Made by a program: the position numbers and the translations under genes. DNA of 64,000 bases, from the NCBI RefSeq assembly GCF_030915505.1, contig NZ_CP133265.1, positions 2,152,001-2,216,000 of the forward strand, given 5' to 3'. Position 1 is the first letter of the stretch, and every line of letters begins with the position of its first letter. This document shows, one piece after another, positions 1,408 through 32,131 of this stretch. Under the pieces are notes generated by a model that saw only the letters and a program-made list of their open reading frames with translations, was not told the DNA's origin and ran no database searches. This stretch comes from Neobacillus sp. OS1-2. GTDB lineage: Bacteria > Bacillota > Bacilli > Bacillales > Cytobacillaceae.

Positions 1408-1416
1408 GAAAAAAGC

Positions 1417-1448: not shown

Positions 1449-1470
1449 TATGGGATGATTTTTCTGACTG

Positions 1471-1500: not shown

Positions 1501-1538
1501 TCAAGAACACCAAACATTTTATGAAGGAGGAATGGATA

Positions 1539-1610: not shown

Positions 1611-1665
1611 TGAATTCCGATCGTGATGAAGGGTATGGAGATGTTTTCTATCCCTTTCCAAAAAG

Positions 1666-1696
1666 AAGCATGCTCTTTTTAGGGTATGCTTTTTTT
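1666..1696 (+). terminator. Leader terminator (attenuator) before the BmrCD-like genes
   Basis: AAGCATGCTC (1666-1675) pairs over ten bases, two of them G-U, with GGGTATGCTT (1682-1691). The loop has six bases, and the T-run extends to 1696. It stands between the leader peptide and the exporter, so it would stop most transcripts unless disrupted. This fits attenuation control. Confidence 0.7.
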
Positions 1697-1742
1697 GTTG
1701 TCGGATTTTTTGGTGAAGTTGATATCAAAGGAGTAGAGGACG

Positions 1743-1799
1743 ATGTGGTGTAAGCAAACAAGATTGATTTTCAAAAAGGATTGGCTAGATTGCGGGTAG
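1743..1799 (+). CDS. Possible 18-aa upstream ORF
   Basis: An ATG at 1743 follows AAAGGAG by about nine bases and opens 18 codons (MWCKQTRLIF... to ...DWLDCG). It lies after the leader terminator and 38 bases before the exporter start. It may be a second regulatory ORF or chance. The only support is its ribosome binding site. Confidence 0.2.
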   Translation: MWCKQTRLIFKKDWLDCG

Positions 1800-1837
1800 T
1801 GATGGTTTACAGAATGTAGGGAAAGTGGGTTTGATAC

Positions 1838-5313: not shown

Positions 5314-5322
5314 AAATAAAAG

Positions 5323-5368
5323 AGGTCAGTCACTCGTGGTATAAAACGACGGGGGACTGACCTTTTTT
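5323..5368 (+). terminator. Intrinsic terminator of the exporter operon
   Basis: AGGTCAGTC (5323-5331) and GACTGACCT (5355-5363) form a nine-base stem followed by TTTTTT, just after bmrD. Confidence 0.85.
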
Positions 5369-5487
5369 GTGAGAGTATTGTTTTGTTTATATTGAGTCGC
5401 GAGTAAGGCTGGGTAGGAGGAGGAAGGCGCATGGGGCGGCCCTTTTTGCCCAACAGATCCAATTAGTATGATTTCTGAAACTATTCG

Positions 5488-5496
5488 TGCTATAAT
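5488..5496 (+). promoter_or_regulatory. Extended -10 promoter of the riboflavin operon
   Basis: TGC followed by TATAAT at 5491-5496 is a perfect extended -10 element. No good -35 is seen at the usual distance, which such promoters do not need. Transcription would begin about 15 bases before the first FMN aptamer. Confidence 0.65.
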
Positions 5497-5514
5497 ATAG
5501 GATAAATATGAATA

Positions 5515-5641
5515 GTCCTTCGGGGTCGGGTGAAAGTCCCAATCGACGGTGATGAAGAAATTCTAAGCCCGTGAGCCTTTTATAAAGGCAGGATTTGGTG
5601 TGAATCCAAAGCCGACAGTATAGTCTGGATGGGAGAAGGAC
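5515..5641 (+). ncRNA. FMN riboswitch (RFN element), copy 1
   Basis: The full RFN aptamer is visible. The closing stem GTCCTTC (5515) / GAAGGAC (5635-5641) encloses the conserved blocks GGGTCGGGTGAAAGTCCC, CGACGGTGATGAAG, AGCCCGTGAGCC, AGGATTTGGTG and AGCCGACAGTATAGTC. FMN binding stops transcription of riboflavin genes in this family. Its own terminator follows at 5727. It is nearly identical to a second aptamer at 5793. Confidence 0.95.
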
Positions 5642-5726
5642 GTTTGAGTACGCTTATTTCCTTATGAAGAAAAACACACTTCAAAAGGTTTATTTGTCGA
5701 TGCTTATAACACGAAAACTCCTAACC

Positions 5727-5757
5727 ACCCCGTAGACATATTCTATGGGGTTTTATT
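5727..5757 (+). terminator. Riboswitch terminator 1
   Basis: ACCCCGTAGA (5727-5736) pairs with TCTATGGGGT (5742-5751), followed by a T-rich tail. It is the expression platform of the first FMN riboswitch. Confidence 0.85.
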
Positions 5758-5792
5758 TTTGCGTAAAACCTCAAAATAATTTCATATGCAAA

Positions 5793-5920
5793 GTCCTTCG
5801 GGGTCGGGTGAAAGTCCCAATCGACGGTGATGAAGAAATTCTAAGCCCGTGAGCCTTTTTGTAAAGGTAGGATTTGGTGCAAATCCAAAGCCGACAGTAT
5901 AGTCTGGATGGGAGAAGGAC
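5793..5920 (+). ncRNA. FMN riboswitch (RFN element), copy 2
   Basis: A second complete RFN aptamer has closing stem GTCCTTC (5793-5799) / GAAGGAC (5914-5920). It differs from copy 1 at only a handful of positions, mainly in the variable stem around 5857-5882. The copies are 278 bases apart. No promoter as good as the first one lies between terminator 1 and this aptamer, so one transcript probably passes both switches before ribD. Confidence 0.95.
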
Positions 5921-6003
5921 GTATGCGCAATGGTACCAGCTTGTGAAGAAAAAATAACCTTCAGTAGGCTTATTTAGTGTTGCCATTTTACATACTCTCC
6001 CTA

Positions 6004-6039
6004 AACTCCTTAGTTGACTTATTCTAAGGAGTTTTATTT
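6004..6039 (+). terminator. Riboswitch terminator 2
   Basis: AACTCCTTAG (6004-6013) and CTAAGGAGTT (6024-6033) form a perfect ten-base stem followed by TTTATTTTT. It is the expression platform of the second FMN riboswitch, 26 bases before ribD. Its sequence differs from terminator 1. Confidence 0.85.
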
Positions 6040-6064
6040 TTGCAAAAAAGGAGGAGGGAATAAG

Positions 6065-7147
6065 ATGACGGATGAGTTCTATATGGATTTTGCCTTGAAA
6101 TTGGCCCAGGTTGCAGAAGGGCAAACGGCACCGAATCCTGTCGTGGGTGCAGTGATGGTAAAGGATGGCGAAATCATCGGATTTGGTGCCCATTTGAAGG
6201 CAGGAACCGAGCATGCTGAGGTTCATGCACTAAAAATGGCAGGAAGTCGGGCCAAGGGAAGTACTATTTATGTAACGCTTGAACCATGCAGTCATTATGG
6301 AAAAACACCTCCATGTGCGATGGCCTTAATAGAATCCGGTGTGGAACGTGTAGTCATCGCCTCTGTGGATCCCAATCCATTAGTTGCTGGCAAAGGAATT
6401 GCTCTTTTGCGAAATGCTGGGATTGAAGTGAAAACAGGCGCTTTAAAAGAAAAGGCAGATGCATTAAATGAGGCATTCTTTCATTTTATACAACAAAATA
6501 GACCTTTTGTGACATTGAAGCAGGCCATTACGCTGGATGGTAAGTTAGCGGCACAGCCAGGTTTTGGTGAAAAGATTACCGGCAGTGAGGTGCAGCAAGA
6601 TGTGCACAATGATCGCGAGAAACAGGATGCCATTTTAGTTGGAATTGGTACCATCTTATCTGATAATCCAAGCCTCACAAATCGCTTGGGTAAGACGAAG
6701 AGACAACCAATTCGAATCATATTAGATACGCATTTAAAGATGCCGCATGATAAAAAAGTGATCACGGATGGCCAGTCACCAACGTGGATTGTCACCGGTT
6801 CGGATGCAGCGGCTGAAAAGATAGCTAGTTTTCACCAACCACATGTAAAAATCATCCAACTTTCAACGCGGGCCATCGATATTACCGAGCTGCTTGCGGA
6901 GCTTGGAAAACGTCAGGTGATGAAACTTTATGTAGAAGGTGGTAAAACCGTCAATGCCAGTTTTTTGAAATCAGGATTTGTAAACCAAATGATTACCTAT
7001 GTTGCACCAAAGATTGTCGGCGGTAATCGGGCAGTTCCGATGTTTGCTGATTTAGATGTACAGCAAATGGAGTACGCTTACGAATTGAACTTTCAACAGG
7101 TAGAAGTGATTGGTGGAGACTTAAAAATAACGTCGGTACTGAAATGA
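6065..7147 (+). CDS. ribD: Bifunctional riboflavin deaminase/reductase RibD
   Basis: The enzyme deaminates the pyrimidine formed from GTP in riboflavin synthesis and then reduces its ribose side chain with NADPH. The protein has 360 residues, as in B. subtilis. The N-terminal deaminase domain shows the zinc motifs HAEVHAL (about 52) and PCSHYGKTPPC (about 74-84). The C-terminal reductase domain starts near residue 147 (RPFVTLKQAITLDGKLA). The ATG at 6065 follows GGAGGAGGG; an upstream in-frame codon at 6014 lies in the riboswitch terminator and was rejected. It is the first gene of the FMN-controlled operon. Confidence 0.96.
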   Translation: MTDEFYMDFALKLAQVAEGQTAPNPVVGAVMVKDGEIIGFGAHLKAGTEHAEVHALKMAGSRAKGSTIYVTLEPCSHYGKTPPCAMALIESGVERVVIASVDPNPLVAGKGIALLRNAGIEVKTGALKEKADALNEAFFHFIQQNRPFVTLKQAITLDGKLAAQPGFGEKITGSEVQQDVHNDREKQDAILVGIGTILSDNPSLTNRLGKTKRQPIRIILDTHLKMPHDKKVITDGQSPTWIVTGSDAAAEKIASFHQPHVKIIQLSTRAIDITELLAELGKRQVMKLYVEGGKTVNASFLKSGFVNQMITYVAPKIVGGNRAVPMFADLDVQQMEYAYELNFQQVEVIGGDLKITSVLK

Positions 7148-7157
7148 GGTGACAATC

Positions 7158-7796
7158 ATGTTTACAGGAATTGTAGAAGATTTAGGTAAGGTCAAAGCAA
7201 TGAAAAATGGGCCTCATAGTATGCAGTTAACGATAGAATCCCAAAAAATGATTGAAGACATCCATTTGGGCGACAGTATTGCGGTAAACGGCGTCTGCTT
7301 AACCGTCACCTCTTTTTCGGCTGGCACCTTTACGGTTGATGTGATGCCGGAGACGGTAAAGGCAACCAATATCCGGTCGTTACAAATAGGCCACCCCGTC
7401 AATTTGGAACGGGCGATGCCGGCAAATGGCCGATTTGGCGGGCATTTTGTCTCCGGGCATGTGGATGGGACAGGCACCATTTTACGAAAAAGGAAAGTTG
7501 AAAATGCAGTATATGTTGATATCGGCATCAGCGAAGAACTGAGTAAATATTGCGTGCTAAAGGGATCAATTGCGATTGATGGAATCAGTTTAACCATTTT
7601 TGATGTAAAACCAACACAGTTGACCGTTTCACTTATTCCTCTTACTTTTAGTGAAACGATTCTAGGAATTAAAAGAGAGCAGGATGTCGTGAATATTGAA
7701 AATGACATGCTCGGAAAATATGTGATTCATCAGTTGGAACGAAAGAAAGAGAGTTCGCCGATTACGATGGATTTTTTAAGACAGAATGGATTCTAG
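7158..7796 (+). CDS. ribE: Riboflavin synthase alpha chain
   Basis: This cytoplasmic enzyme converts two 6,7-dimethyl-8-ribityllumazines into riboflavin and the pyrimidine precursor. The 212-residue protein consists of two similar lumazine-binding barrels, starting with [10 protein letters not shown] and, in the second half, [14 protein letters not shown] near residue 114. The ATG at 7158 is preceded by GAGGTGA; the GTG at 7149 lies within that binding site and was not used. It sits 10 bases after ribD. Confidence 0.95.
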
Positions 7797-7815
7797 AAAA
7801 GGCGGTGTATTGACA

Positions 7816-9006
7816 ATGTTTCATACCATTGAAGAAGCAATGGAGGATTTGAAAAAGGGGAAAATCATTATCGTGGTCGATGATGAGAATCGTGAAAATG
7901 AAGGGGACTTTTTGGTGCTGGCCGATTATGCAACACCAGAGAATATTAACTTTATGGCTACACACGGCCGCGGCTTAATCTGCACCCCTATCACGAAGGA
8001 ATTAGCGGCACGTCTCGATTTACATCCGATGGTTCAGCACAATACGGATAATCATCAAACGGCTTTTACAGTTAGTATTGATTATAAGGATACGACGACT
8101 GGTATTAGTGCCTTTGAGCGGTCTGAAACGATTTTACAACTGTTAGACGGGGAAGTCACCGGCACGGATTTTCGTCGGCCTGGTCATGTGTTCCCGCTTG
8201 TAGCCAAGGAAAACGGTGTTCTGGAGAGAAATGGACATACGGAAGCGGCAGTTGATTTTGCGAAGCTTTGCGGTGCGCAGCCTGCTGGGGTCATTTGCGA
8301 AATTATGAGTGATAACGGCGAAATGGCAAGGGTGCCAGAACTAATAAAATTTGCTGAAACGTACGATTTGAAGTTGGTGACGATTGCCGATTTAATCCGC
8401 TATCGTTATGAACATGAGCAGCTTGTAAAACGTGAGGCATCAGTGAAACTGCCAACATCCTTTGGCGAATTTCAGATGATTGGTTATTCTAATCAGCTAG
8501 ATGGGAAAGAACATGTTGCTATCGTGAAAGGCGATATTCTTAAAGAGGAGGCGCCACTTGTTCGGATTCATTCTGAGTGTTTGACAGGGGACGTTTTTCA
8601 TTCAAAACGTTGTGACTGTGGACCGCAATTGCATCTGTCATTAGAAATGATAGAAGAAGCGGGCCGTGGTGTCGTGCTCTACATGGAGCAAGAAGGCAGG
8701 GATATTGGTCTGCTAAATAAGTTAAAAGCCTATGAGTTGCAAGAGCAGGGGTATGATACAGTCGAAGCAAATGAGCAGTTAGGATTCCCGGCGGAAATGC
8801 GTGATTATGGGTTATCGGCGCAAATGCTCCGAGATTTAGGGATTACGAAGGTGCGTTTGATGACAAACAATCCTGAGAAACTGGAAGGCTTAACGAAATA
8901 CGGCATTGAAGTGATAGAACGTGTGCCGCTTGAAGTGGCTGCTGTAGCAGAGAATAAACAGTATTTAATGACAAAAAAAGAAAAAATGAATCATATTTTA
9001 GCATAG
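7816..9006 (+). CDS. ribBA: Bifunctional DHBP synthase / GTP cyclohydrolase II RibBA
   Basis: The N-terminal half forms 3,4-dihydroxy-2-butanone 4-phosphate from ribulose 5-phosphate ([11 protein letters not shown] at about 27). The C-terminal half opens GTP in the first step of riboflavin synthesis ([18 protein letters not shown] with the zinc cysteines, about 252). With 396 residues it matches the B. subtilis protein. I chose ATG 7816, which follows AAAGGCGGTG at a normal distance. The in-frame ATG at 7786 lies inside ribE and has no binding site. Confidence 0.95.
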
Positions 9007-9018
9007 GAGAGATGAAAA

Positions 9019-9483
9019 ATGGGACAAGTATTTGAAGCACAATTAGTCGGAACGGATTTAAAAATTGGGATCGTGGTAGGAAGATTTAATGAATTTTTAA
9101 CAAGCAAATTATTGGGCGGAGCAATGGATGGCTTGAAACGTCACGGTGTGTCTGAAGAAGATATAGATGTTGCTTGGGTGCCAGGGGCATTCGAGGTGCC
9201 GTTTATCGCGAAGAAGATGGCAGAAACGAAAAAATACGATGCGATCATCGGTCTGGGAACCGTTATTCGCGGATCTACTACTCACTACGATTACGTCTGT
9301 AATGAAGCAGCTAAAGGGATTGCGAGTGCTGGCTTAACAACAGGTGTGCCGGTTATGTTCGGCATTGTGACAACCGAAACCATTGAGCAAGCTATCGAGC
9401 GCTCTGGAACAAAATCAGGTAACAAAGGCTATGATGCGGCGGTATCGGCCATTGAAATGGCAAATTTGAATCGGTTGTTTTAA
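9019..9483 (+). CDS. ribH: 6,7-dimethyl-8-ribityllumazine synthase
   Basis: This enzyme condenses the RibD pathway product with dihydroxybutanone phosphate and usually assembles into an icosahedral shell in Bacillus. The 154-residue protein carries VGRFNEF (about 22), PGAFEVPF (about 55) and the catalytic region [19 protein letters not shown] (about 76). It is the last gene of the operon, 12 bases after ribBA, and a terminator follows at once. The accessory island begins just beyond. Confidence 0.96.
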
Positions 9484-9492
9484 TTTTTGGGA

Positions 9493-9526
9493 CAGTCCCT
9501 CCGCAGCTAGAAAGCGGAGGGGACTG
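9493..9526 (+). terminator. Terminator of the rib operon
   Basis: CAGTCCCTCCGC (9493-9504) pairs with GCGGAGGGGACTG (9514-9526) in a long GC-rich stem. The T-run is poor (ATTTTC a little downstream), but the position right after ribH supports the call. Confidence 0.7.
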
Positions 9527-9541
9527 ACCCATTTTCTATAT

Positions 9542-19115: not shown

Positions 19116-19748
19116 TTAAATTCTTTCTAATTTAGAACTATTAATCCTGTAAACCACGTCACATATTTTTATATCTTCTTGATTGTGGCTCGTTAGCAGT
19201 ATAGTCCGTCCTTCTTCTTTAAAACCAATTAATAAGTCACGCACTCTTTTAACACTATCAATATCTAAAGCATTGAATGGTTCATCTAAAATTAAGACTT
19301 CCTGATTTTCCATAATTGCCTGACATATAGCTAACTTCTGCTTCATCCCTAAGGAGTAATTCTTAGCCTTTTGAGTATAATTTGGATCTAAACCAACTAT
19401 CTTCATTGTTTCAATGATCTGTTTGTCATCTACTACTCCTTGTATTAAAGATAATTCTTTTAAATTTTCAAAACCAGTTTTATTTGCAATAAAGCCAGGG
19501 CGATCTATAATAACCCCAAAATTCTCCGGAAACCTCTTATCCTTCCCTATCTCCGAACCTTGAATTGATATCGTCCCTTTGTCTGGGAAAATAAATCCAC
19601 AAATCATTTTAAATAGAACTGATTTACCGGAACCATTCGGACCCACAAATCCATAAATCTTTCCTTTTTCAATATCTAAATTCACATTTTCAAACAAAGC
19701 ATTTCCCTTAAAGCTTTTACTTACTTCGTTTACTGAAATCAAAGACAA
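19116..19748 (-). CDS. ABC transporter ATP-binding protein
   Basis: The ATPase subunit has Walker A GPNGSGKSV (about residue 37), signature YSLGMKQKL (about 131) and Walker B VLILDEPFNALD (about 150). The unusual YSLGMKQ signature is typical of the ABC-2/bacitracin-type drug and bacteriocin-resistance ATPases. The start is uncertain: TTG 19748 has GGGGG eight bases upstream, while GTG 19763 and ATG 19754 are also in frame. It is the last gene of a three-gene operon with two permeases. The operon diverges from a secreted protein gene, which suggests export or immunity. Confidence 0.85.
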   Translation of the reverse strand: MSLISVNEVSKSFKGNALFENVNLDIEKGKIYGFVGPNGSGKSVLFKMICGFIFPDKGTISIQGSEIGKDKRFPENFGVIIDRPGFIANKTGFENLKELSLIQGVVDDKQIIETMKIVGLDPNYTQKAKNYSLGMKQKLAICQAIMENQEVLILDEPFNALDIDSVKRVRDLLIGFKEEGRTILLTSHNQEDIKICDVVYRINSSKLERI

Positions 19749-19763
19749 TATCATCGCCCCCAC

Positions 19764-21290
19764 TTACATTTTTATACTTTTAGTGAAAAGGTATTTTATT
19801 ACAGAATAAATAACAAAACTAGAAATTAATAAAACCAACGTTATTCGCAATGGCGAAAAATACTCCAAGTATACCAAGCTATTTAAGCCTACAGGAATTA
19901 CACCTAACTGATTAATTCCCGGCAACATTATGATCATAAAAATACTCATTATAACGATCCCATGACTCGCATCTTTTCTAGTCCACGAAAAGATGAATAC
20001 AAACAAGATATAGACAACAATTTGTAAAAATCCATTTATTAAAAAGTGATAAAAAACAGTGTACAGAGGCGCATCAAACACCGTCAACTTATATTGAATT
20101 TCTCTACCTGTAAATAACCCCACTGTCACAGACAATATCATAAAAAGCAATAACAAGAAGATTACTCTTAATAAAATTCTTCTAAACCAACTCCAAAACC
20201 ACTTTTTTAAACTTCTAAAACGGATAATCTTATAAAACCCCAAACTATCTAACTCTTTACTTATATCGAAATTCACTAAATATACTAACCCGAAAAATAC
20301 GATTGAGTAGTAGAAAAATGAAGAATATGAAAAACTCTCTGAACTAGTCCCTCTAAAGGACATTACCCAAACATCTAATATAGTCCCCTCAGTTGGACCT
20401 AAATTGTTGGACGAAGAAATAATCCCCAGCAGACATAAAGATATGTAGATTAAATGAGATAGATATGGTTTTACTGATTGAAAGTACCTTTTTTTATTTA
20501 AATCAATCATCAATAAATATAAGGTAAACACTATTATTTGAACCGCAAGAATGCCTAATCCTTTTAGTGCAGGATTAAATGAATGAATATATTTTGTAAT
20601 AGAAAAATAGGTGGTAGGTGATAAGTAGGCATATTCACTAGGTAATAATTTAAAACCTACCAAACCTCCAATAAACAGAATTACACACATTATTAGAAGG
20701 AGATTTATTTTTTTTATAGTTACATAAACTAATGACAAAAACACATGTAACATGGATATCGCAAAAATAAACAAAACCAACTGTAAAATAAATACCGTTA
20801 AAGGAGTTGAAAAAATGACAACAACCTCATTAAGTGTATTATAAAGATTATTGGAATTACTAAACTGACTCCAGCTCCAAGAATGAGGCAACCCAATGGT
20901 TAAAAATTGACACATAAAAACCCAAATCAACAAAAATATAGAGGATTTTATCCAAAATCTCTTAAGTGAACGAAAAACCCATTTTTGCATCGATCCTACA
21001 CGAATCAATATTTCATGATTAAAATCATCCAAGATAGTTGTAGTCGAGAAAAATAACATTAAAGGAACGACAAAATAAACAATCATATACATATCGTTGA
21101 ACAAATTTAAGGAAATATCCCACCCATTTATATTTACACCATCAAAAATAGCGTTCTCTACGATTCGCTTCTTCAACACGGTACCGTAGAAATAGATAAG
21201 GACACCCAGCACTAACCATTTCAAACTTATTAATTCTTCAAAATACCTGGCTATGGATAATTTTATATTTGTCATTCTTATATCATCCAT
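19764..21290 (-). CDS. ABC transporter permease, large subunit
   Basis: This hydrophobic protein of 508 residues has about twelve predicted membrane segments in two halves separated near residue 330. It has no enzyme motif. Its start overlaps the end of the upstream permease gene by 13 bases (ATG within that gene's final codons). Its stop abuts the ATPase gene. It belongs to no family I can name and is assigned by operon context and hydrophobicity. It probably forms the channel with the 261-residue permease. Confidence 0.7.
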   Translation of the reverse strand: MDDIRMTNIKLSIARYFEELISLKWLVLGVLIYFYGTVLKKRIVENAIFDGVNINGWDISLNLFNDMYMIVYFVVPLMLFFSTTTILDDFNHEILIRVGSMQKWVFRSLKRFWIKSSIFLLIWVFMCQFLTIGLPHSWSWSQFSNSNNLYNTLNEVVVIFSTPLTVFILQLVLFIFAISMLHVFLSLVYVTIKKINLLLIMCVILFIGGLVGFKLLPSEYAYLSPTTYFSITKYIHSFNPALKGLGILAVQIIVFTLYLLMIDLNKKRYFQSVKPYLSHLIYISLCLLGIISSSNNLGPTEGTILDVWVMSFRGTSSESFSYSSFFYYSIVFFGLVYLVNFDISKELDSLGFYKIIRFRSLKKWFWSWFRRILLRVIFLLLLFMILSVTVGLFTGREIQYKLTVFDAPLYTVFYHFLINGFLQIVVYILFVFIFSWTRKDASHGIVIMSIFMIIMLPGINQLGVIPVGLNSLVYLEYFSPLRITLVLLISSFVIYSVIKYLFTKSIKM

Positions 21291-22063
21291 TCGTCCCTAT
21301 TACGAACTACTAATATATATATAATACTTGCCACTATTATCAGGAAAGTAAAAGGTACCATTGTGGTCCACAACTCCTGTTGTTCAATATTGAATGGGAA
21401 TATAGTACTTAGAGGAGAAAATCGCGCTACACCAAATACACCCGCAACAAAATTAAAAACATGATAAAACAGAAATGGAACGGATAAAGCAACAAAAGGT
21501 CGCCTTATAATAAGCATTAGTAAGAATGAAATAGTTGTGTATAGGACAGCATTTAAAGCCACCCATATTGAATAAACTAAACCGTAAACCAAATCTCCAT
21601 ACTTTAAAAATTGAGAAAAGGTAACACTACTACTGTAATTTCCTTCCAAGGGTGGAGAAAGAGCTACTAATTGTAAATAATTTGGTTCAATGAATACCGC
21701 AAATACAAACGAAAAAAAGACCATTAAAAATAAAATAAAACCTGTTAAGAATGCGTTTATTATACCCTTAGTAAGGATATAAAGGTTTAAGGGTATTCTA
21801 GTGCGAGTGTATGTAATAAAATTATTTTTCTGCTCTTGTACAAAGTCTGGTAGATAAATGAAAACTACCAGTACAGGAAAGATCAACGGAATAAATAATC
21901 CCACCATTTCTTGAAACACTTCCACAGAATAAGAATAATAGTACCCTTCCATGACGGGGTAGAATGAACTTAGTGGTATTACCAGAATAATAATTAGCCA
22001 CTTTATTATATTTTTAATCTTGATAGCACGTTTGAGTTCAATCCATAGCTGACCTGTTAACAT
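21278..22063 (-). CDS. ABC-2-like transporter permease, small subunit
   Basis: The 261-residue membrane protein has about six hydrophobic segments and a short basic N-terminus (MLTGQLWIELKRAIKIKN), the usual ABC-2 permease pattern. ATG 22063 follows AGGGG at eight bases. It is the first gene of the three-gene ABC operon. About 190 bases separate it from the divergent secreted-protein gene, so the two promoters share one control region. Confidence 0.7.
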   Translation of the reverse strand: MLTGQLWIELKRAIKIKNIIKWLIIILVIPLSSFYPVMEGYYYSYSVEVFQEMVGLFIPLIFPVLVVFIYLPDFVQEQKNNFITYTRTRIPLNLYILTKGIINAFLTGFILFLMVFFSFVFAVFIEPNYLQLVALSPPLEGNYSSSVTFSQFLKYGDLVYGLVYSIWVALNAVLYTTISFLLMLIIRRPFVALSVPFLFYHVFNFVAGVFGVARFSPLSTIFPFNIEQQELWTTMVPFTFLIIVASIIYILVVRNRDEWMI

Positions 22064-22256: not shown

Positions 22257-22664
22257 ATGAAAAAAGTTAAAAGTCTAGTTCTTGGGTCAGCTCTAGCACT
22301 ACTCGTTACAGGAGGTGTCGTTCAGGCAGGTGAAAATTGGGTAGGATATAATAAAGATGTAGGTGCTTTTAACGGTTCTGCATACACTGGTTATGTAGGA
22401 ATGACCGGTTACTTAACAACTGGAGAGAGGATTGCTTTTGTAAGTTCCAATGTGGGAGGCGACTACACCGTAGATATTAGGGCTCAAAGAAGCGGTGGTA
22501 TTGACCCAAATACTAGCTGGATACGGAATGTCGGAGATAATGTCAAAGGGTCATGGGAAAGAGTTTATTTGAACCAGGAAGGTGAGGGGTATAGACTTCA
22601 ATTTAGTAATGATCTATCCACACCAGTAAAAGTAAATGTTACAGGAACTTTTAAGACTTATTAA
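22257..22664 (+). CDS. Small secreted protein divergent from the ABC operon
   Basis: The product has 135 residues with a signal peptide (VKSLVLGSALALLVTGGVV, cleavage probably after VQA, residue 24). The mature 111-residue chain is rich in Gly, Tyr, Asn and Ser, has no cysteine, and looks like a beta protein (SSNVGGDYTVDIRAQRSGG, VKVNVTGTF). ATG 22257 follows AAAGGAG. I do not recognise the family. The mix of a small exported protein opposite a three-gene ABC transporter resembles secreted-bacteriocin loci with transporter immunity, for example the lactococcin 972 type, but I see no sequence match to that toxin. Confidence 0.6.
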   Translation: MKKVKSLVLGSALALLVTGGVVQAGENWVGYNKDVGAFNGSAYTGYVGMTGYLTTGERIAFVSSNVGGDYTVDIRAQRSGGIDPNTSWIRNVGDNVKGSWERVYLNQEGEGYRLQFSNDLSTPVKVNVTGTFKTY

Positions 22665-24766: not shown

Positions 24767-25351
24767 TTATACCACTGCGCTATTAGCGCTTTCGTACAAA
24801 GCAACAGAATTGTTAATTTCAAGCTGGTATAATCCTAAATTTGTTAGTTTTAATATGAATTGTTCCTCAATTGGAGTTACAATTTCCATTACACCATCTT
24901 TATCCAACATAAAAAAAGCTGGTAAAAAGCCGATTTCTAAGTCTTTAATGAAGTTATCTTTATAATATAGTATTTGAAAATCTTGTTGAATCAAAGAAAG
25001 ATATTCTTTTACTGCAAGATCATTTTCATGTAAAAATACATAATAGTCTTTAGATGAAATTATTTTTGAACTAATACTTAAAAAGTTTTCAAAATGTGAC
25101 ATACAAGCAGGACAAGAACTACTAATTAAAATTCCTAGTAAGTGATTGCTCGTGATACTTTTAATATCTAAATTACATTTACCATCATTCACCTCGACAG
25201 AATTAACTTTTTTTCCAATGGTGTTAGCTTGAAAGATATGATGTTCTTTTTTCTTTGAAAGTGATTTCTTAACACTTTTAATATTTTTTATTACTACAAA
25301 AAGAATAACAAAAACAATTAGTAGAAGGATTATATTAATATAATTTAACAT
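24767..25351 (-). CDS. Membrane-anchored thioredoxin-like protein (CPAC)
   Basis: The product has 194 residues: one N-terminal membrane helix (INIILLLIVFVILFVVI), then a thioredoxin-like domain facing outward. It has the active-site motif CPAC in SSSCPACMSHFE (about 88) and the cis-proline region LPAFFMLDKDGV. It resembles TlpA/MauD-type thiol oxidoreductases. It is the last gene of a minus-strand set with an FtsX permease, an ATPase and a six-cysteine peptide, and a second thioredoxin-like gene lies on the other side of the cluster. A role in the redox state of the peptide's cysteines is inferred. Confidence 0.75.
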   Translation of the reverse strand: MLNYINIILLLIVFVILFVVIKNIKSVKKSLSKKKEHHIFQANTIGKKVNSVEVNDGKCNLDIKSITSNHLLGILISSSCPACMSHFENFLSISSKIISSKDYYVFLHENDLAVKEYLSLIQQDFQILYYKDNFIKDLEIGFLPAFFMLDKDGVMEIVTPIEEQFILKLTNLGLYQLEINNSVALYESANSAVV

Positions 25352-25445
25352 TATGTTTCCCCCTTTTCAAAAAATTCCCTCCTATAACTATTTTAGAAAT
25401 AGGGTATCGGGTTATGGGAACAGTTAATCTCTTTAACTAAATATT

Positions 25446-28103
25446 TTAAATATCAATAGAGATATCTGATTTTACAATTCCAATCCCTCTCATCCCTTCA
25501 ATAGGTTCCATTTTCATAGCTACCCTAGAAGGAATCCAAGCTCCAGCCATCCCAATAAGAACAGGGCTTAAGCAGGTGATCAGCGGTAACCACAATTCCT
25601 TAATAGGAATTGGTCCATACATAAAATAGATAATTCCTAGTGAAATTAGTCCTCCAGCTAATCCTCCTAAAAATCCAATAGCCGCTCCTTCAATCAACAC
25701 CATTAAACGAACATTTTTATTTTTCCACCCTAACGCTTTTAATAAGGAGATTTCGTTTCTACGTTCTTTTATATTTTGCCACAAAATTTCTGAAGTAGTT
25801 AATATGGAAATGATTAATGAAATTGCTACTGCAACATAATGTGGAGTGCCTACCTCTAACGATACATATTGACCTAACCAAGATGTATATAACACACCTT
25901 TTAAACGGAAAGAAACATAAATGAACAGAATTAACAACGAAGTAGGCAAAGCTATAGCAATGATAGAAACTAGATTTCGATTCAGTCTACCAATTACTGA
26001 ATTGAAGACCATTGATAGTAACCCATTTGTTCTTAAAACCCTTTTCCTCAATACACTTATTTCACCTGTTCTCATTACGTGAGATGGTTGAATTTGATTA
26101 ACTAAATGTATGGGACCTAAAGGGCCAATAATATAGATAAGCAATACAAAGAATGTAATCAAAAATGCTTGAGATATGGATAAAGCTGCTACATTTCTAA
26201 AGCCTAAAATCAATTGCACTAATAGAGTTACAAAAGTAACGATTACACCTATTAATAATGACTCCATCATTAGGATATTCTTTAATTGTCTTGGTTTCCA
26301 TCCAATAGCAAGAAGTATAGCAAACTCCCTTTTTCTTGAAAGAAAGGAAACTAAACTGGTTGAGAATACATAAATCATGGCAACAAGAATATTACAAATA
26401 ATGATCCCTGTGTATCCCAACTTGGTTTCCTGAAAAATATTAATAGCTGCTCCAATTTTAATCCAAGATTGTTCAATCCATCCAAGTGCCTCATGATTTC
26501 TCACCTTGGGGATATTGATTAATATGGGTTGGGGTGAAGACCCTAAAGTAATATCTGTCTCAAGGCCCGTTTGTTGCTCAATTTTTTTGGCTACTAATTT
26601 TAATTTTTCTTGGCTTTCTTCATTTAAAGTGTTGACATCCTTCACTTTAATTCGGATAGCAGAGATGGGATTATCACCTAAAATGTGTTTGGCTGCTTCG
26701 ATAGTTGTTAACATAGTAGGCGGTTGCATTAGATAACCATATATATTAGAAGTAGGATTCATCGTCTTTGGTGGATTCACTGGCTGGTCTTTACTATTAA
26801 GAACCCATTTTGCAGAAGGACTTTTATACGTTTCCATAGGAAGTTCATTTTCAGGGTCCATTGAAACATCTAATTTTTTCGGATCATAAAACCCAATAAA
26901 ATAGGGACTCAGTCTCGGATTGTTACGCATACTCAGATCTACCAATTGAGGCTTTCGGTAAGTAAAACTTTGATTAGTATTCGTTTTATCTTCATAAGGA
27001 ATGACTTGAAATGCGTGATTCCATCTTTCAGGGAACGGGCTTTCAATAGACCGGTATTTAAGTGAACTAGTTTGTTCACGAAGTAAACTACTAAGATCGA
27101 CGTTCGAACTACTGATTGATGATTTGGTGTTTCTCGTTTTAAGGTCTACCCCCGAAAGACTCTCCATTAATAGTTGATGACCCTCATTTGAATTGTATGA
27201 GAATTTTTTAGTTTCAATGGTGGGGAGTGTTTTTAAATATTCTTCTCCACCATTTTTTTCAATAACTTCTAGTGACTTTTGCCTAGTTTCCGAATCGCCG
27301 TAAGGAATATCTAATTTTTCTATTTTAAACTCGAATGTTTGATCCAAGAATGACTGGTTACTTATGATAACTGGAAAGATTGTTTCCTTGGCAGTTATCC
27401 CTTCAAATCCTAACTCACTTAAAGGATATGAATTGATCATATCGTCTTTTGAAAAATATTGACTTTTTCCATCGATAGGTAGCATTGCTTTATCAAGTCC
27501 TACAAGTTTAGCTTCTTGTACTGGATCGACGGCAGCTAAAAGAACATTTGTAAAACTAGAGAGATTTTCTTCAATACCAGTAATTCCATATTTCTTAGAA
27601 ATATTTGGACTAGGTAAATCGTACATTCCCCTCGAAAAGTAGTGCTCATTTGTAGCTGACGAAGGGTTAAGGCCATTATAATCTGTTGTTGTTTCAGTTA
27701 GACGGTATATCCCCGGCTCCTTAACGTCCATTTTTTTAAAATTGGTTACGTAACCTGAAAAGCCAATCATACTAATAGGGGCCGCTGTTTCGATATCCGG
27801 AATACCCTTGATTTTTTCATAATCCTCTAAAGATATCCCACCGGCTAATCCACTTAGGTAATTAGGATCAAATAGATCAACTTGCTCCGTTATACTTTTT
27901 GTTCCTTTTGGCCGAACGACAATATCATAAGAAGCCTTCCATTTTTTCTGTAAAGAATTAATTACTGTTCCTTTATTCGTTTCGGACAGTCCAATTAATG
28001 TACTTAATCCTCCACTTATCAATAAGGCACCAATCATCATGAGAAAAAAACGTCGTTTCTGACGCATCCAATTTTTTAAAATAAAGGAAATCATATATTG
28101 CAA
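25446..28103 (-). CDS. FtsX/MacB-like ABC transporter permease
   Basis: This 885-residue membrane protein has one helix near the N-terminus (FFLMMIGALLISGGLSTLIG), an outer domain of about 500 residues, and FtsX-like helices in the C-terminal part (about 555-860). FtsX motifs RKREFAILLAIGWK (about 590) and ERRNEISLLKALGWK (about 786) are clear. Its ATG lies inside the end of the ATPase gene (13-base overlap), so the two form one transporter. Such pairs export or pump out peptides, or transmit force to the outside. In this cluster immunity to, or release of, the cysteine-rich peptide is plausible. Confidence 0.85.
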   Translation of the reverse strand: MQYMISFILKNWMRQKRRFFLMMIGALLISGGLSTLIGLSETNKGTVINSLQKKWKASYDIVVRPKGTKSITEQVDLFDPNYLSGLAGGISLEDYEKIKGIPDIETAAPISMIGFSGYVTNFKKMDVKEPGIYRLTETTTDYNGLNPSSATNEHYFSRGMYDLPSPNISKKYGITGIEENLSSFTNVLLAAVDPVQEAKLVGLDKAMLPIDGKSQYFSKDDMINSYPLSELGFEGITAKETIFPVIISNQSFLDQTFEFKIEKLDIPYGDSETRQKSLEVIEKNGGEEYLKTLPTIETKKFSYNSNEGHQLLMESLSGVDLKTRNTKSSISSSNVDLSSLLREQTSSLKYRSIESPFPERWNHAFQVIPYEDKTNTNQSFTYRKPQLVDLSMRNNPRLSPYFIGFYDPKKLDVSMDPENELPMETYKSPSAKWVLNSKDQPVNPPKTMNPTSNIYGYLMQPPTMLTTIEAAKHILGDNPISAIRIKVKDVNTLNEESQEKLKLVAKKIEQQTGLETDITLGSSPQPILINIPKVRNHEALGWIEQSWIKIGAAINIFQETKLGYTGIIICNILVAMIYVFSTSLVSFLSRKREFAILLAIGWKPRQLKNILMMESLLIGVIVTFVTLLVQLILGFRNVAALSISQAFLITFFVLLIYIIGPLGPIHLVNQIQPSHVMRTGEISVLRKRVLRTNGLLSMVFNSVIGRLNRNLVSIIAIALPTSLLILFIYVSFRLKGVLYTSWLGQYVSLEVGTPHYVAVAISLIISILTTSEILWQNIKERRNEISLLKALGWKNKNVRLMVLIEGAAIGFLGGLAGGLISLGIIYFMYGPIPIKELWLPLITCLSPVLIGMAGAWIPSRVAMKMEPIEGMRGIGIVKSDISIDI

Positions 28104-28783
28104 CCTTCCCTGTCTTTTATTACGTATCCATCTTTCATTTCAATTACTCTTCCGGTTCGTTCTGCCAGCATGGGATCATGAGTTACTAGTATTACTCCGC
28201 ATTTCTTCGTTTTGTTTAGATGCAGAAGCAGTTCAAAAATTTTGTTGCCTGTTTCCGTATCTAGATTCCCCGTCGGCTCATCTGCTAAAATCCAATCTGG
28301 ATCTGCAATTAATGCACGAGCAATTGCAACACGCTGTTGTTGACCACCAGATAATTGAGAAGGAAATGAGTTTATTTTATCACCAAGTCCTACATGGTTT
28401 AAAAGTTCTTTTGCGCGGTCCATTTTATTAAAAGAAATTTTCCTTTTAAACAATGGAATCAATACATTTTCCAAAGCTGTTAGTGTTGGCAATAGGTGAA
28501 ATTGCTGAAAGACGAATCCTATGTCTTTAAATCGAATGTCTGCTAAATCATCCGACCTTAAGTTACTAATAAGGTAATTATCAAACAAGACTTGTCCATT
28601 TGACGGATTATCCAAAGTTCCAATTATACTAAGCAAGGTAGATTTACCAGAACCAGAAGGCCCCATAATAGAAATAAATTCCCCCTTTTCAAAACTTATT
28701 GTAATATCACACAACGCTTTCGTCTCCACACCGTCTCCATGGTAATCTTTTGAAACCTTATTTAGAGAAATGTTTTTCAACAA
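28091..28783 (-). CDS. MacB/LolD-like ABC transporter ATP-binding protein
   Basis: The 230-residue ATPase has Walker [10 protein letters not shown] (about 38), Q-loop [10 protein letters not shown], signature [15 protein letters not shown] (about 140) and Walker [13 protein letters not shown] (about 159). This pattern is typical of partners of FtsX-like permeases. I chose TTG 28783, nine bases after AAGGAGG. Longer in-frame starts at 28810 and 28861 run through that binding site and the terminator before it. It sits between the peptide gene and the permease gene. Confidence 0.85.
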
Positions 28784-28821
28784 GGGATTATGCCTCCTTA
28801 AAAATTTCATTAAAAATAAAT

Positions 28822-28845
28822 AGACCTCTAAATTGTAAGAGGTCT
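28822..28845 (-). terminator. Partial terminator between peptide gene and ABC genes
   Basis: AGACCTCT (28822-28829) and AGAGGTCT (28838-28845) form an eight-base stem, followed on the minus strand by a T-rich stretch. It would leave the peptide mRNA abundant and the transporter genes less expressed, as in many bacteriocin operons. Confidence 0.65.
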
Positions 28846-28897
28846 TATAATCTACCGGCATTAATCATTTTAATTTATTTATTACTAAAATTACTTT

Positions 28898-29086
28898 TTA
28901 ACAATTGCAGTATTCAAGCTTTTCTTGACAGATTGTACCGTCACGGGTATCAATCAGATATTGAACGTAGCCCTTTTCATTTCCTATCCCTTTACATTTT
29001 GAATATGTTATACAAGTTATTTCTAAACGAGTACCTCCTGAACATGGTACGTATTGTGGTTGAATTAATCCGGATAAAAATTTCAT
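28898..29086 (-). CDS. Six-cysteine small peptide, candidate exported antimicrobial precursor
   Basis: The product has 62 residues with six cysteines (positions 15, 25, 31, 54, 60, 62), ending LEYCNC. It has no hydrophobic signal peptide. A Gly-Gly at 17-18 (CSGG/TR) could be a leader cleavage site, but neither adjacent ABC protein has a C39 peptidase domain. ATG 29086 follows AGGGGG at about eight bases. It is the first minus-strand gene, followed by a partial terminator and the ABC genes. Divergent from it are a second ABC exporter, a MauE-like protein and a thioredoxin-like protein. I do not recognise the family. The context strongly suggests a disulfide-rich exported peptide. Confidence 0.6.
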   Translation of the reverse strand: MKFLSGLIQPQYVPCSGGTRLEITCITYSKCKGIGNEKGYVQYLIDTRDGTICQEKLEYCNC

Positions 29087-29245
29087 TGTAATTCCCCCTA
29101 AAATATAATATTTTGTTTGCCGGTAAAATTAATAATCTAGCAATTCTAAATTTAAAACTATAATTATATCCATATCTTATAAAATATGGTATTATATCAA
29201 ATGATAATTGTCAATATTTACATTTTTACTCGTAGAGGTGGGAAT

Positions 29246-31027
29246 TTGAAAAAAGAAGTCTTATCAATCATAAGTAAAATAATATGGAATAGTTGCAAGT
29301 GGAATTTTATACTTTTTATTATTTTAAAAGCTATTATAAGTTTTTTTCCTGTATTATCTATTTATCTTTTTCAGAAGTTAATCAACACAATAATGATTTA
29401 TGCGCAAAAGAAAACTACTTTAGAAGAGATTATTTATCTTTTTATTCTTCAAATTTCAATAATAATAATATCTTTTGCTATAGACCATATATTAAATATC
29501 AATGACCAAATCATGGATAATAAAGTAAACTATTATACTAAGGAAAAGGTGATTGATAAAGTTAGTAAATTAGAATTTATAAAATTTGAAGACCCGGAAA
29601 ATTATAATTACTTAACCAGAGTAATGGCAAATACTTCACAAATTAAAAGTTTTTTAACGAATACAGTAGGCCTAATAAGTTCATTTGTTAGTTTGGTGTC
29701 TATTATAATTCACTTATTTTCAATTAATTGGCTGATTGTAGTCATTTTGTTTATTGGAATAATTCCATATTTAATTGTTGAAATAAGATTTAGTAAAAAA
29801 TATTTTAATCTTTTCACTGACCTTACTCCATTTGACAGAAAAGAAAGTTATCTATTTAACCTAAATACTAACCGTAATACACTTAAAGAAATAAAACTGT
29901 ATAATGTTTTTGGATTTATTAAGGAAAAGTGGGAAAATATATTTTTTTATACTACTAAAAAAAGGGTTGAGTTAGCCAAAACAAAATCAAAACAAATTTT
30001 TTTTTCGGAATTTTTTATAACAGCAACTTATGCATTATGTGGATTTGTAATTTTAAAAGATTTACATAGGAGCTCAGCTTTAGCTGGAGGGTTAATTGCA
30101 ACTCTACAATCAATTCAGTATTTACAGGGTGAACTTACAAAGAGTTCGCGGAATTTATCTCAAACTCATGAATCATACTTATTTATTGAGGACTATGTTA
30201 AATTTCTTACTAGTCCAGAGAAAGAGCCTAAATCACATATACCAATAAGTAAAATTATGAATATTAAAATAGATAATCTAAATTTCACATATCCAAATCA
30301 ATTAATCCCTTCAATAAAAAATATTAATTTAGAAATTAATAGTCAAAAGAAAGTAGCAATTGTTGGGGAAAATGGTTGTGGAAAAACTACTTTAATTAAA
30401 TGTATTACTGGTTTATATAATACGAATGATTCAATTAAAGTTAATGGATTACCACTAGATCAAATCAATCCATTAACTTATCAAGCAAGATTATCTGTTC
30501 TATTTCAAGATTTTATAAGGTATGATATGTCGGTTAGATTTAATATTGGAATTGGGAATGTAAATAATATAGACAATGAAATCCTTATAAAGGATGCTGC
30601 AAAGAAGGCAACCATCGATAATTATATAAATGGCCTGAGTAAAAAATATGATTCAATTTTAGGTCGATTTTTTGAAGGAGGTAATGAATTATCTGGGGGT
30701 CAATGGCAAAAGGTCGCAATTGCTAGATCTCTATTTCGTAACAGTGATTTAATAATATTAGATGAACCAACCGCAGCGCTGGATCCAATTTCGGAAGTTG
30801 AAATCATTAAAGATTTGTTCGATAAAAATAATCATTGTTCAATTATTTTTGTTACTCATCGTTTAGGAGCTGCCAGCTTAGCAGATGAAATCTTAGTTTT
30901 AAAAGAAGGCCAAGTAATTGAGAGAGGAAACCATCAAGAGTTACTCAATTTAAATGGAGAATACCATAAAATGTACATAGCCCAGTCAAGTTGGTATTCG
31001 ACAAAGGAGGAATTAGTATCATACTAA
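29246..31027 (+). CDS. ABC exporter, fused membrane and ATPase domains
   Basis: This 593-residue exporter has an N-terminal membrane domain of about six helices (about 15-330) and a C-terminal ATPase. Walker A is GENGCGKTT (about 374), signature LSGGQWQKVAIARSL (about 479), Walker B LIILDEPTAALDP (about 500), and the H-loop THR. There is no N-terminal peptidase. The start is TTG 29246 after AGAGGTGG; the in-frame ATG at 29186 has no binding site. It diverges from the six-cysteine peptide and precedes the MauE- and MauD-like genes. Export of that peptide is the likely role. The sequence is very AT-rich compared with the flanking core genes. Confidence 0.85.
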   Translation: MKKEVLSIISKIIWNSCKWNFILFIILKAIISFFPVLSIYLFQKLINTIMIYAQKKTTLEEIIYLFILQISIIIISFAIDHILNINDQIMDNKVNYYTKEKVIDKVSKLEFIKFEDPENYNYLTRVMANTSQIKSFLTNTVGLISSFVSLVSIIIHLFSINWLIVVILFIGIIPYLIVEIRFSKKYFNLFTDLTPFDRKESYLFNLNTNRNTLKEIKLYNVFGFIKEKWENIFFYTTKKRVELAKTKSKQIFFSEFFITATYALCGFVILKDLHRSSALAGGLIATLQSIQYLQGELTKSSRNLSQTHESYLFIEDYVKFLTSPEKEPKSHIPISKIMNIKIDNLNFTYPNQLIPSIKNINLEINSQKKVAIVGENGCGKTTLIKCITGLYNTNDSIKVNGLPLDQINPLTYQARLSVLFQDFIRYDMSVRFNIGIGNVNNIDNEILIKDAAKKATIDNYINGLSKKYDSILGRFFEGGNELSGGQWQKVAIARSLFRNSDLIILDEPTAALDPISEVEIIKDLFDKNNHCSIIFVTHRLGAASLADEILVLKEGQVIERGNHQELLNLNGEYHKMYIAQSSWYSTKEELVSY

Positions 31028-31572
31028 CTGTTTTATTTTATTTAGGTGAATTTTCATTAGGGTTAGTTTTTCTCTTTTCTGTCTTTGATAAAATAAAAAA
31101 TACAGGAAGACATATTAATTCATTGAGAGAATACAGAATCTTATCAGAAAATCTGATTACAATTGGATTTACTTTAGTGATTCTTTTTGAAGTGATGATA
31201 TCCTTTATTTTATTTTTTTGGCATTTAAATTTATTTATAGTTATTATATGTGGTGTTGTTCTCCTTCTATTCTCAATAGCTGTTATAAAAAATATTATAA
31301 CTGGGAATACAAACATATCGTGTGGATGTGGTGGAATTCTGGAAAATGACACATTACATTTTGGTATAATTTATAGGAATATTTTTATGATATTGGTTAT
31401 TTCTATCTTATTTATCGTTGAACATAACAATATTTTATTAAACATCACATTGTGGGTGAAATTGCTGATTTTTTTAACATCTATTAGTTTAATATTTATT
31501 ATTATTATTATAGGAAAAGAATTTAACAGACTAATAACTAAAAGAAATGTAATTTTAAAATATTTTAACTGA
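30991..31572 (+). CDS. MauE/DoxX-like redox membrane protein
   Basis: The protein has about 190 residues and four hydrophobic segments. A CGCGG motif in NISCGCGGILEND (about 110) matches MauE-type proteins, which work with the thioredoxin-like MauD to form disulfides in methylamine dehydrogenase. The start is unclear. TTG 30991 gives the frame, but a perfect AAAGGAGG at 31003-31010 lies inside it. At the right distance after it are only ATC (31018) and ATA (31021), so an unusual or mutated start is possible. It overlaps the exporter gene, and the thioredoxin-like gene follows at once. Confidence 0.7.
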   Translation: MVFDKGGISIILTVLFYLGEFSLGLVFLFSVFDKIKNTGRHINSLREYRILSENLITIGFTLVILFEVMISFILFFWHLNLFIVIICGVVLLLFSIAVIKNIITGNTNISCGCGGILENDTLHFGIIYRNIFMILVISILFIVEHNNILLNITLWVKLLIFLTSISLIFIIIIIGKEFNRLITKRNVILKYFN

Positions 31573-31585
31573 AAGGTTCGTGAAT

Positions 31586-32131
31586 ATGTTTACTAATATA
31601 ATACTCTCAATAGTTCTGTTAATATTAATAGTGGAATTGTATATAATCTATTTTATTATAAGATTTACTAGAACGTTTTTAGAAGAAATAAGAGGAATAA
31701 AGGGACTACAATTTGGCTCTTTACAGGTCGGGAATAATGCACCTTTATTTCGTGCGCTAGATTCAAATAAGCAGAAAATAGTTTTAAAAGATGAACTTAT
31801 AAAAAATAAGGTCTTGATGTTATTTGTTAATACAGATTGTTCAACTTGTAGAGGGCTCATCGAGGATATCTCAAAAAACGAAATGGAATACACAGTGCCA
31901 TTATTAATAATAAACAATGATACTTCTGACAATGATAATAATTTTATAAAGATATTAAACAACAAAGTTAATTATATAAAATCACTTCAAATTTTCTCTA
32001 GTTATCACGTAAATATTACACCGTTTTTTTTCTTGGTTAACATGAATGGAGAAATAGAGTCACTTGGAGAAATAAAATATTTTGAACAATTACTTGATCT
32101 ATTATCACAAAATTCAAAAGTAGCTTCTTAA
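31586..32131 (+). CDS. Membrane-anchored thioredoxin-like protein (CSTC), MauD-like
   Basis: The 181-residue protein has one N-terminal membrane helix (IILSIVLLILIVELYIIYFI) and an outer thioredoxin-like domain with CSTC in NTDCSTCRGL (about 83) and the cis-proline stretch NITPFFFLVNMNGEI. I chose ATG 31586 after AAAGG; GTG 31580 is also in frame. It follows the MauE-like gene by 13 bases. The pair reproduces the MauE-MauD arrangement, which elsewhere builds disulfide bonds in exported proteins. The likely client here is the six-cysteine peptide. Confidence 0.75.
   Translation: MFTNIILSIVLLILIVELYIIYFIIRFTRTFLEEIRGIKGLQFGSLQVGNNAPLFRALDSNKQKIVLKDELIKNKVLMLFVNTDCSTCRGLIEDISKNEMEYTVPLLIINNDTSDNDNNFIKILNNKVNYIKSLQIFSSYHVNITPFFFLVNMNGEIESLGEIKYFEQLLDLLSQNSKVAS

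Follow-up and report, generated by a model that had tools for sequence, protein, structure and literature searches.

What does a bacterium make with a MauE-family membrane protein, two thioredoxin-like proteins and two ABC systems grouped around the gene for a 62-residue peptide with six cysteines? The question is raised by a divergent seven-gene cluster at positions 24767–32131 of the window, the 64,000-nt stretch of the Neobacillus sp. OS1-2 genome analysed here. Judging from sequence comparison, we consider the cluster to be a probable dedicated production line for a secreted three-disulfide peptide, most likely a bacteriocin, a reading to which we give roughly two chances in three.

Organization of the cluster

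All seven genes, which an earlier note had described as facing outward from one control region, were found at the positions and on the strands it gave (Table 1). The exporter could start at 29186 or, better, at the TTG codon at 29246, which is preceded by the ribosome-binding site AGAGGTGGG. A ribosome-binding site (AAAGGAGG, 31003–31010) also precedes the MauE gene, with no canonical start downstream of it; the in-frame codons are ATT, ATC and ATA, which differs from the relatives examined.

Table 1. Features of the divergent cluster, with positions in the window
Feature	Position	Strand	Supporting evidence
TrxA, membrane-anchored thioredoxin-like protein, CPAC	24767..25351	-	ResA-like match, weak
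FtsX-type permease, extracytoplasmic region large; pairs with the LolD-type ATPase	25446..28103	-	PF02687, 2.1e-23
LolD/MacB/FtsE-type ABC ATPase	28091..28861	-	
Intrinsic terminator between the peptide and the ATPase, partial	28822..28845	-	8-bp stem, T-rich tail
Gene for the 62-aa six-cysteine peptide (cargo), MKFLSGLIQPQYVPC...DTRDGTICQEKLEYCNC	28898..29086	-	Conservation, linkage, selection
Control region separating the divergent peptide and exporter genes	29087..29245		
ABC exporter, membrane and ATPase domains	29246..31027	+	PF00664, PF00005
MauE-family membrane protein, motif ISCGCGG	31003..31572	+	PF07291
TrxB, membrane-anchored thioredoxin-like protein (AhpC/TSA, MauD/ResA-like), CSTC	31580..32131	+	Domain and profile matches

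The partial terminator that the same note had seen behind the peptide gene is real (1 found against 0.1 expected), and a similar inverted repeat and T-run can be read at the same place in Sporosarcina. With such a terminator, the peptide transcript would predominate. Promoter-like sites in the control region were not above chance.

The LolD-type ATPase is 72% identical to its Sporosarcina counterpart, and the FtsX permease is 64% identical in Sporosarcina and 44% in genome G045. This pair occurs in about one third of the clusters and is absent from most, with none within the fetched flanks of the Bacillus pumilus-group clusters; it is probably an immunity device or a second export step. The conserved core is the peptide, a peptidase-less exporter, MauE and one or, usually, two thioredoxins, with LolD/FtsX as an accessory.

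Locations of the clusters include an island of about 25 kb that is absent from a same-species genome, plasmids and, in one case (L064), a siphovirus-like prophage, whose MauE found no match in a phage collection. At some loci the peptide copies are in tandem and diversified. Among the neighbouring genes we recognised neither a sensor kinase nor a response regulator or Rgg/PlcR-type receptor.

The peptide is conserved and linked to MauE

A search with the single peptide sequence in the 193 genomes of the family matched only the peptide itself, so that it appeared to be an orphan, a view that was overturned once profiles were applied. The first relative came from a weak tblastn match on an Exiguobacterium plasmid and further ones from profiles; they adjoin MauE and, as a rule, the same set of exporter and thioredoxin genes, in the genera Sporosarcina, Exiguobacterium, Virgibacillus, Lysinibacillus, Anoxybacillus, Geobacillus, Paenibacillus and Fontibacillus and in the B. 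pumilus group. The closest relative, that of Sporosarcina, is without the exporter and its TrxA is truncated.

Separate genome scans with a peptide profile and with a MauE profile led to the same loci; for one contig scan the MauE profile was reduced from 18 rows, which were too diverse, to seven. Among 397 order-level genomes, four peptide matches beyond the window were full-length and in open frames (G264, G568, G249 and G556), and each of them lay no more than 3 kb from a MauE match obtained independently; among 399 class-level genomes all five new matches below 1e-4 adjoin exporter and MauE-type genes. Two other candidates, G631 and G737, were discarded as false, being weak matches in long frames with no MauE nearby. 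In a gene-family comparison of 35 loci, the exporter was present in 34 and MauE in all 35, and thioredoxin-like proteins usually numbered two per locus.

Across 34 loci, some of them duplicates from one lineage, short frames with at least six cysteines and a preceding ribosome-binding site numbered 40 at distances of up to 4 kb from MauE (287 kb in total), versus 2 farther away (309 kb). Such a cysteine-rich frame was found near MauE at 32 of the 34 loci when at least six cysteines were required and at 33 when at least five were. In an alignment of 23 peptides, Cys15, 25, 31, 53, 60 and 62 are invariant, and D46 and G50 form a near-invariant turn. The pattern proposed for the family, C-x(8-12)-C-x(3-6)-C-x(n)-D-x(2-3)-G-x-x-C-x(5-7)-C-x-C adjoining MauE and an exporter, is found in the window peptide; spacing or turn deviates in several members (e.g., eight-cysteine forms, L058, L078). 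The B. pumilus-group peptide, with pS of 0.10–0.50 versus pN of 0–0.06, is under strong purifying selection. This small, unannotated peptide gene is real and conserved, more than chance would give. Conservation in similar clusters, on which the earlier note had made its proposal depend, was borne out in Bacillales, Exiguobacterium and Paenibacillaceae, where the family tracks the MauE/thioredoxin/exporter module with its six cysteines intact.

Judged by these searches, a widespread peptide family is not recognised by the databases searched. Ten relatives gave no Pfam or NCBIfam match above cut-off, three of the peptides none in PHROGs, and PDB sequences none to the family profile; a sub-threshold match to Pfam CLIP_1 (E 0.006) was set aside as chance because the peptide is rich in cysteine. 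For two members sharing 34% identity, the AlphaFold2 models agree in a beta-alpha-beta-beta fold (pLDDT 81.8 and 89.5), and Foldseek with the predicted models gave nothing better than E 1.

The export and thiol proteins

Domain searches found only PF00664 and PF00005 in the exporter and no C39 peptidase domain, and no double-glycine leader was found ahead of the peptide's cysteines. The window MauE matches PF07291 at 2.6e-17 (63.8 bits, cut-off 27) and is the sole PF07291 protein of its genome; CGCxG and RN are invariant in 18 aligned MauE sequences. TrxB best matches ResA and MauD. TrxA has CPAC in the window, and its counterparts often carry CPHC, CSHC or CIHC, sites typical of oxidising DsbA-type proteins. 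The methylamine dehydrogenase small subunit (PF02975) had no match in the genome, nor did control genomes give one. PADLOC matches to the permease and TrxB were judged spurious.

Proposed route and alternatives

Directly supported are the genes and the linkage, the conserved cysteines, the predicted fold and, in close relatives, the selection. A peptide encoded beside the same exporter and membrane thiol proteins in many Bacillus-like and Paenibacillus-like bacteria is probably secreted, disulfide-stapled and antibacterial. The peptide, which has no double-glycine leader, would be synthesised in the cytoplasm, its cysteines reduced, and the peptidase-less exporter would carry it across the membrane. 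At the outer face, MauE would serve as a membrane electron sink and, together with the two membrane-anchored thioredoxin-like proteins, would oxidise the six cysteines and sort them into pairs, giving three disulfides and the beta-alpha-beta-beta fold. LolD/FtsX, transcribed past the partial terminator, would guard the producer or clear the product from its membrane. The direction of export, disulfide formation, antibacterial activity and an immunity role are what we infer from this arrangement. Counting against it are the Sporosarcina cluster without an exporter, the non-canonical MauE start and the lack of LolD/FtsX in most clusters.

Where the earlier note had left antimicrobial and signalling roles side by side, we favour the former: a bacteriocin appears most likely given the accessory island, the plasmid and prophage locations, the tandem diversified copies and the lack of recognised receptor genes nearby. 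The secreted peptide could instead be a signal for quorum or inter-strain communication, as the near-invariance of the B. pumilus-group form, in clusters with no LolD/FtsX in the fetched flanks, would suggest; such constancy is more than expected of an arms-race toxin and counts against a bacteriocin. We nevertheless think a signal unlikely, since a sensor or receptor was not recognised among the neighbours and diversified tandem copies and plasmid or prophage carriage suit bacteriocins better.

It is similarly improbable that the MauE/thioredoxin pair works in the reductive or isomerase direction of ResA/TlpA, holding cysteines in the reduced state or correcting mispaired ones as the peptide is exported, and that air or the house-keeping BdbCD makes the disulfides. 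The matches of TrxB to ResA and MauD and the disulfides still formed in knockouts of lasso clusters (PMC9266682) fit such a role, whereas the DsbA-like sites of the TrxA counterparts and the presence of two different thioredoxins, suggesting oxidation plus isomerisation, speak for the oxidising one. That the thiol proteins and exporter handle another substrate (e.g., a low-molecular-weight thiol, as in CydDC), with the peptide incidental, is very unlikely: the exporter does score against models of CydD/CydC and MsbA at a sub-threshold level, but the cysteine-rich frame near MauE at nearly all loci, the invariant cysteines, the purifying selection and the placement of the genome's one MauE in the cluster largely refute this idea.

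Returning to the production line for a disulfide peptide, MauE, thioredoxin and peptidase-less exporter could, tentatively, be a portable, scaffold-independent machine of Bacillota for secreting such peptides. Besides the six-cysteine scaffold ending in CxC, the module would serve CC-ending peptides (Priestia L080, G255 L050, L112, L113, L115 and L116) as well as short forms of the type C-x5-C-x-C-x7-C-x9-C-x-C (L059, L060 and L062), and the redox pair appears also to have been recruited to a four-cysteine lasso peptide (L057). Many peptides have a short amphipathic N-terminal start, such as MLxKLL, which could be a common export signal. These data suggest that common Bacillota carry an extensive set of disulfide-stapled, gene-encoded peptides that have escaped annotation; several lie on plasmids or a prophage, and MauE plus thioredoxin plus exporter offers a genetic handle for finding them. 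The long-open question of what MauE and MauD do also becomes testable in a simple system, with a 55–65-aa cargo and disulfides accessible to mass spectrometry.

Comparison with known systems

The nearest known relatives in kind are laterosporulin, sublancin and the disulfide lasso peptides with DoxX/thioredoxin pairs. Double-glycine class II bacteriocins have a GG leader and a C39 exporter, and the window cluster has neither. Sublancin 168 (sunA-sunT-bdbA-sunS-bdbB, SPbeta prophage) has a double-glycine leader, a C39 peptidase exporter, a glycosyltransferase and the DsbB-type BdbB. It resembles our system as a Bacillus disulfide bacteriocin with its own thiol-disulfide proteins, prophage-borne like L064, but none of those four features was seen in the window cluster, whose seven proteins include no SunS-type glycosyltransferase.

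Laterosporulin of Brevibacillus (class IId, defensin-like) has about 50 residues, six cysteines, three disulfides, no double-glycine leader and an exporter without a protease domain, and its published cluster comprises a regulator, a hypothetical protein, an ABC transporter and a dehydrogenase, with no MauE or thioredoxin (PMC3293901). No known bacteriocins other than laterosporulin, laterosporulin3 and laterosporulin10 (PDB 4OZK, 6LWY and 6LWZ) appeared in the weak fold matches; both models matched 6LWZ (VIA Z 2.8, rmsd 2.6, 43 aligned; Z 2.7, rmsd 3.4, 44 aligned), at Z values well short of a safe level and equalled by unrelated entries. Homology was rejected (hhalign probability 0.1%, no sequence match), the cysteine spacing differs, and no laterosporulin was found on plasmid records.

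In class I lasso clusters, DoxX and thioredoxin genes (SviE/SviF, MslE/MslF, HumE/HumF) stand beside multi-cysteine peptide and exporter genes (PMC9266682, PMC7168211), and are dispensable for the disulfides (PMC9266682); the redox genes might therefore aid export or folding in our cluster as well, rather than be required. Lasso clusters are defined by a lasso precursor, a B1/B2 protease and a cyclase, which the window cluster lacks: no B1 (PqqD-like), B2 (transglutaminase-like) or AsnB-like cyclase is among its proteins, whereas L057, another kind of MauE cluster, has all three. For decRiPPter candidate families of Streptomyces, modification of a ribosomal peptide by MauE/MauD had been proposed earlier (PMC7794033). 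These are actinobacterial predictions, in whose description we found no exporter-peptide architecture like that of the window cluster. In the literature searched, no link was found between MauE and a Bacillota peptide. Within the searches made, which gave no family model or paper, the earlier note's term "undescribed" is right for the peptide family; it does not hold for the link of MauE with peptide clusters, which decRiPPter and the lasso clusters anticipate. Methylamine dehydrogenase maturation employs a MauE of the same Pfam family, and TrxB is weakly MauD-like; the cargo here would be a short exported peptide.

Results

The window (G000:C1:2152001-2216000) comes from a single-contig genome of 4.73 Mb and carries seven cluster genes transcribed divergently from an AT-rich stretch of about 160 bp. 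The MauE of the cluster is the only PF07291 protein in that genome, and the exporter combines a membrane domain with an ATPase domain but lacks a C39 peptidase domain. Among the matches listed, none of the cluster proteins reached an NCBIfam cut-off, and the peptide matched no family model and no solved sequence. The MauE gene has a good ribosome-binding site followed in frame only by ATT, ATC or ATA, the Sporosarcina gene having TTG; the window gene may have a non-canonical start, a lost start or a sequence error.

A genome of the same species (G141) matches window 1-9536 at 97% and the sequence from 34580 onward at 87%, the stretch between being unmatched except for short scattered repeats. 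The cluster therefore lies in an accessory island of about 25 kb, which also holds a conjugation-type lysozyme-NlpC/P60 protein, a phage-type integrase and a RadC-like protein. Other cluster copies are located on plasmids (Priestia and Exiguobacterium) or in a siphovirus-like prophage (L064).

Features of the window cluster and of related loci (L-numbers)
Feature	Location	Strand	Remark
TrxA, thioredoxin-like	window 24767-25351	-	CPAC
FtsX permease	window 25446-28103	-	
LolD/MacB-type ATPase	window 28091-28861	-	
Terminator	window 28845-28822	-	
Peptide	window 28898-29086	-	62 aa, six Cys
ABC exporter	window 29246-31027	+	
MauE-family protein	window 31003-31572	+	PF07291, 2.6e-17; start region 31003-31021
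TrxB, thioredoxin-like	window 31580-32131	+	CSTC
Separate ATPase, two membrane proteins	window 19116-22063		same island
Small secreted-looking protein	window 22257-22664		adjoins the preceding genes
Closest relative of the window cluster	L066 1-7061		Sporosarcina sp. E16_8
Second MauE fragment	L007 7313-7546		G045; 55% identity to window MauE, TGA-interrupted
Unannotated metallopeptidase-like protein	L006 9292-10428; L077 3927-5072		HEMTH and HELSH; adjoining peptides lack an N-terminal extension
134-139-aa protein, family not assigned	L051 6721-7125; L075 4979-5398		beside TrxA; common to B. pumilus-group and Fontibacillus clusters
Tandem peptide copies	L079 44-608; L081 3985-4464; L049 7737-8143; L114 6698-7813		two or three per cluster, identical or diverged
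Module behind holin and amidase genes	L064 2842-8141		IMG/VR contig; eight-Cys peptide
Lasso cluster	L057 9414-13219		G460:C327

Searching with the single peptide sequence gave no relative in the family's 193 genomes, among which is another genome of the window's species. On a plasmid of Exiguobacterium acetylicum, a weak tblastn match (E 0.5) proved to be one of two unannotated peptide copies flanking an exporter, MauE, two thioredoxins, an ATPase and a permease. Within the family, G045 has the entire cluster, its peptide version carrying eight cysteines. Peptide and MauE profiles built from early relatives were each run, independently, against 397 order-level genomes; besides the window, all four full-length open-frame peptide matches (G264, G568, G249 and G556) lay at most 3 kb from a MauE match, the chance of one such coincidence being roughly estimated at below 1e-4. 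At class level, five new peptide matches below 1e-4 (G613, G666, G696, G866 and G929), from one GTDB family, probably Paenibacillaceae, all adjoin an exporter and a MauE-type gene. Two weak class-level matches in long frames, without these neighbours, were rejected. The profile matches at both levels bear out the conservation beside MauE, thioredoxin and exporter genes on which the earlier note had staked its proposal, and the window peptide is a real gene. Named loci come from Sporosarcina, Anoxybacillus, Geobacillus, Paenibacillus, Fontibacillus, Virgibacillus, Lysinibacillus, Exiguobacterium and the B. pumilus group.

All 23 peptides in the alignment share the six cysteines without exception, and D46 and G50 (window numbering) are almost as constant. 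Selection on the peptide is seen in close relatives, with pS 0.10-0.50 and pN 0-0.06 in the B. pumilus group (six strains, five species) and 0.32 and 0.08 between Geobacillus and Anoxybacillus; the window and Sporosarcina peptides (51% identity) give 0.73 and 0.35, near saturation. In 34 loci, nine of which represent a single B. pumilus-type lineage and which include two further genomes twice each, RBS-preceded ORFs of 40-80 aa with at least six cysteines numbered 40 in 287 kb near MauE versus 2 in 309 kb away.

AlphaFold2 models built on 13-peptide alignments predicted a strand-helix-strand-strand arrangement for both the window peptide (pLDDT 81.8, pTM 0.55) and the Virgibacillus peptide (pLDDT 89.5, pTM 0.60). 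Comparison of both with PDB structures gave no confident match. Laterosporulin10 appeared in both second-look lists (Z 2.8 and 2.7, with 43-44 of its 53 residues aligned), tied with unrelated rows; the likeness of the predicted fold is suggestive, and sequence comparison lends it no support.

Among 35 loci compared, MauE was present in 35 by construction, since loci were picked by it, and the exporter in 34, the L057 match being part of a lasso cluster. Thioredoxin-like proteins numbered 64, with only one in each of the short-scaffold loci L059, L060 and L062. TrxB stands behind MauE, often with C-x-T-C, and TrxA is separate, often divergent, its site often CPHC, CSHC or CIHC. LolD/FtsX occurs in the window, L006, L007, L066, L077, L081, L112 and L116, and in L115 by its permease; the remaining clusters have a binding-protein-dependent-type permease pair (c5/c6) or neither pair. 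An M1 domain is fused C-terminally to the Sporosarcina permease (L066), and L006 and L077 have MA-type metallopeptidase genes, their matches under the Pfam cut-off. L066 lacks an exporter gene between peptide and MauE, and its TrxA ends directly after CSHC; this cluster is decaying or rewired. The MauE fragment of G045 is a relic of another module copy in that genome.

Discussion

We propose that the peptidase-less exporter would secrete the peptide, that MauE and the thioredoxins would make and sort its three disulfides outside the membrane, that the product would be a bacteriocin and that LolD/FtsX would protect. The redox step calls for caution, because the DoxX and thioredoxin genes of class I lasso clusters are dispensable for disulfides, one of them affecting export (PMC9266682). 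The peptide could instead be a signal; we rate this as the less likely reading, since no receptor gene was recognised in the neighbourhood.

We take the cluster to represent disulfide-stapled, bacteriocin-like peptides served by a MauE-thioredoxin module. Sublancin resides in the SPbeta prophage, and the prophage carriage of the L064 module recalls it. In the open-licence literature we found no earlier link of MauE/DoxX proteins to ribosomal peptides beyond the lasso E/F pairs and the untested candidates from Streptomyces proposed by decRiPPter (PMC7794033); subscription journals could hold one. The L057 lasso cluster, with PqqD-like, Transglut_core3 and AsnB-like proteins, begins with MauE and a thioredoxin, and its precursor, MKKTYTAPTLIKIGNAIELTQAKCIGGWAECLDCDLFYHTKCGH, has four cysteines. 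This cluster belongs to a genome of the order Bacillales and probably yields a lasso peptide with two disulfides.
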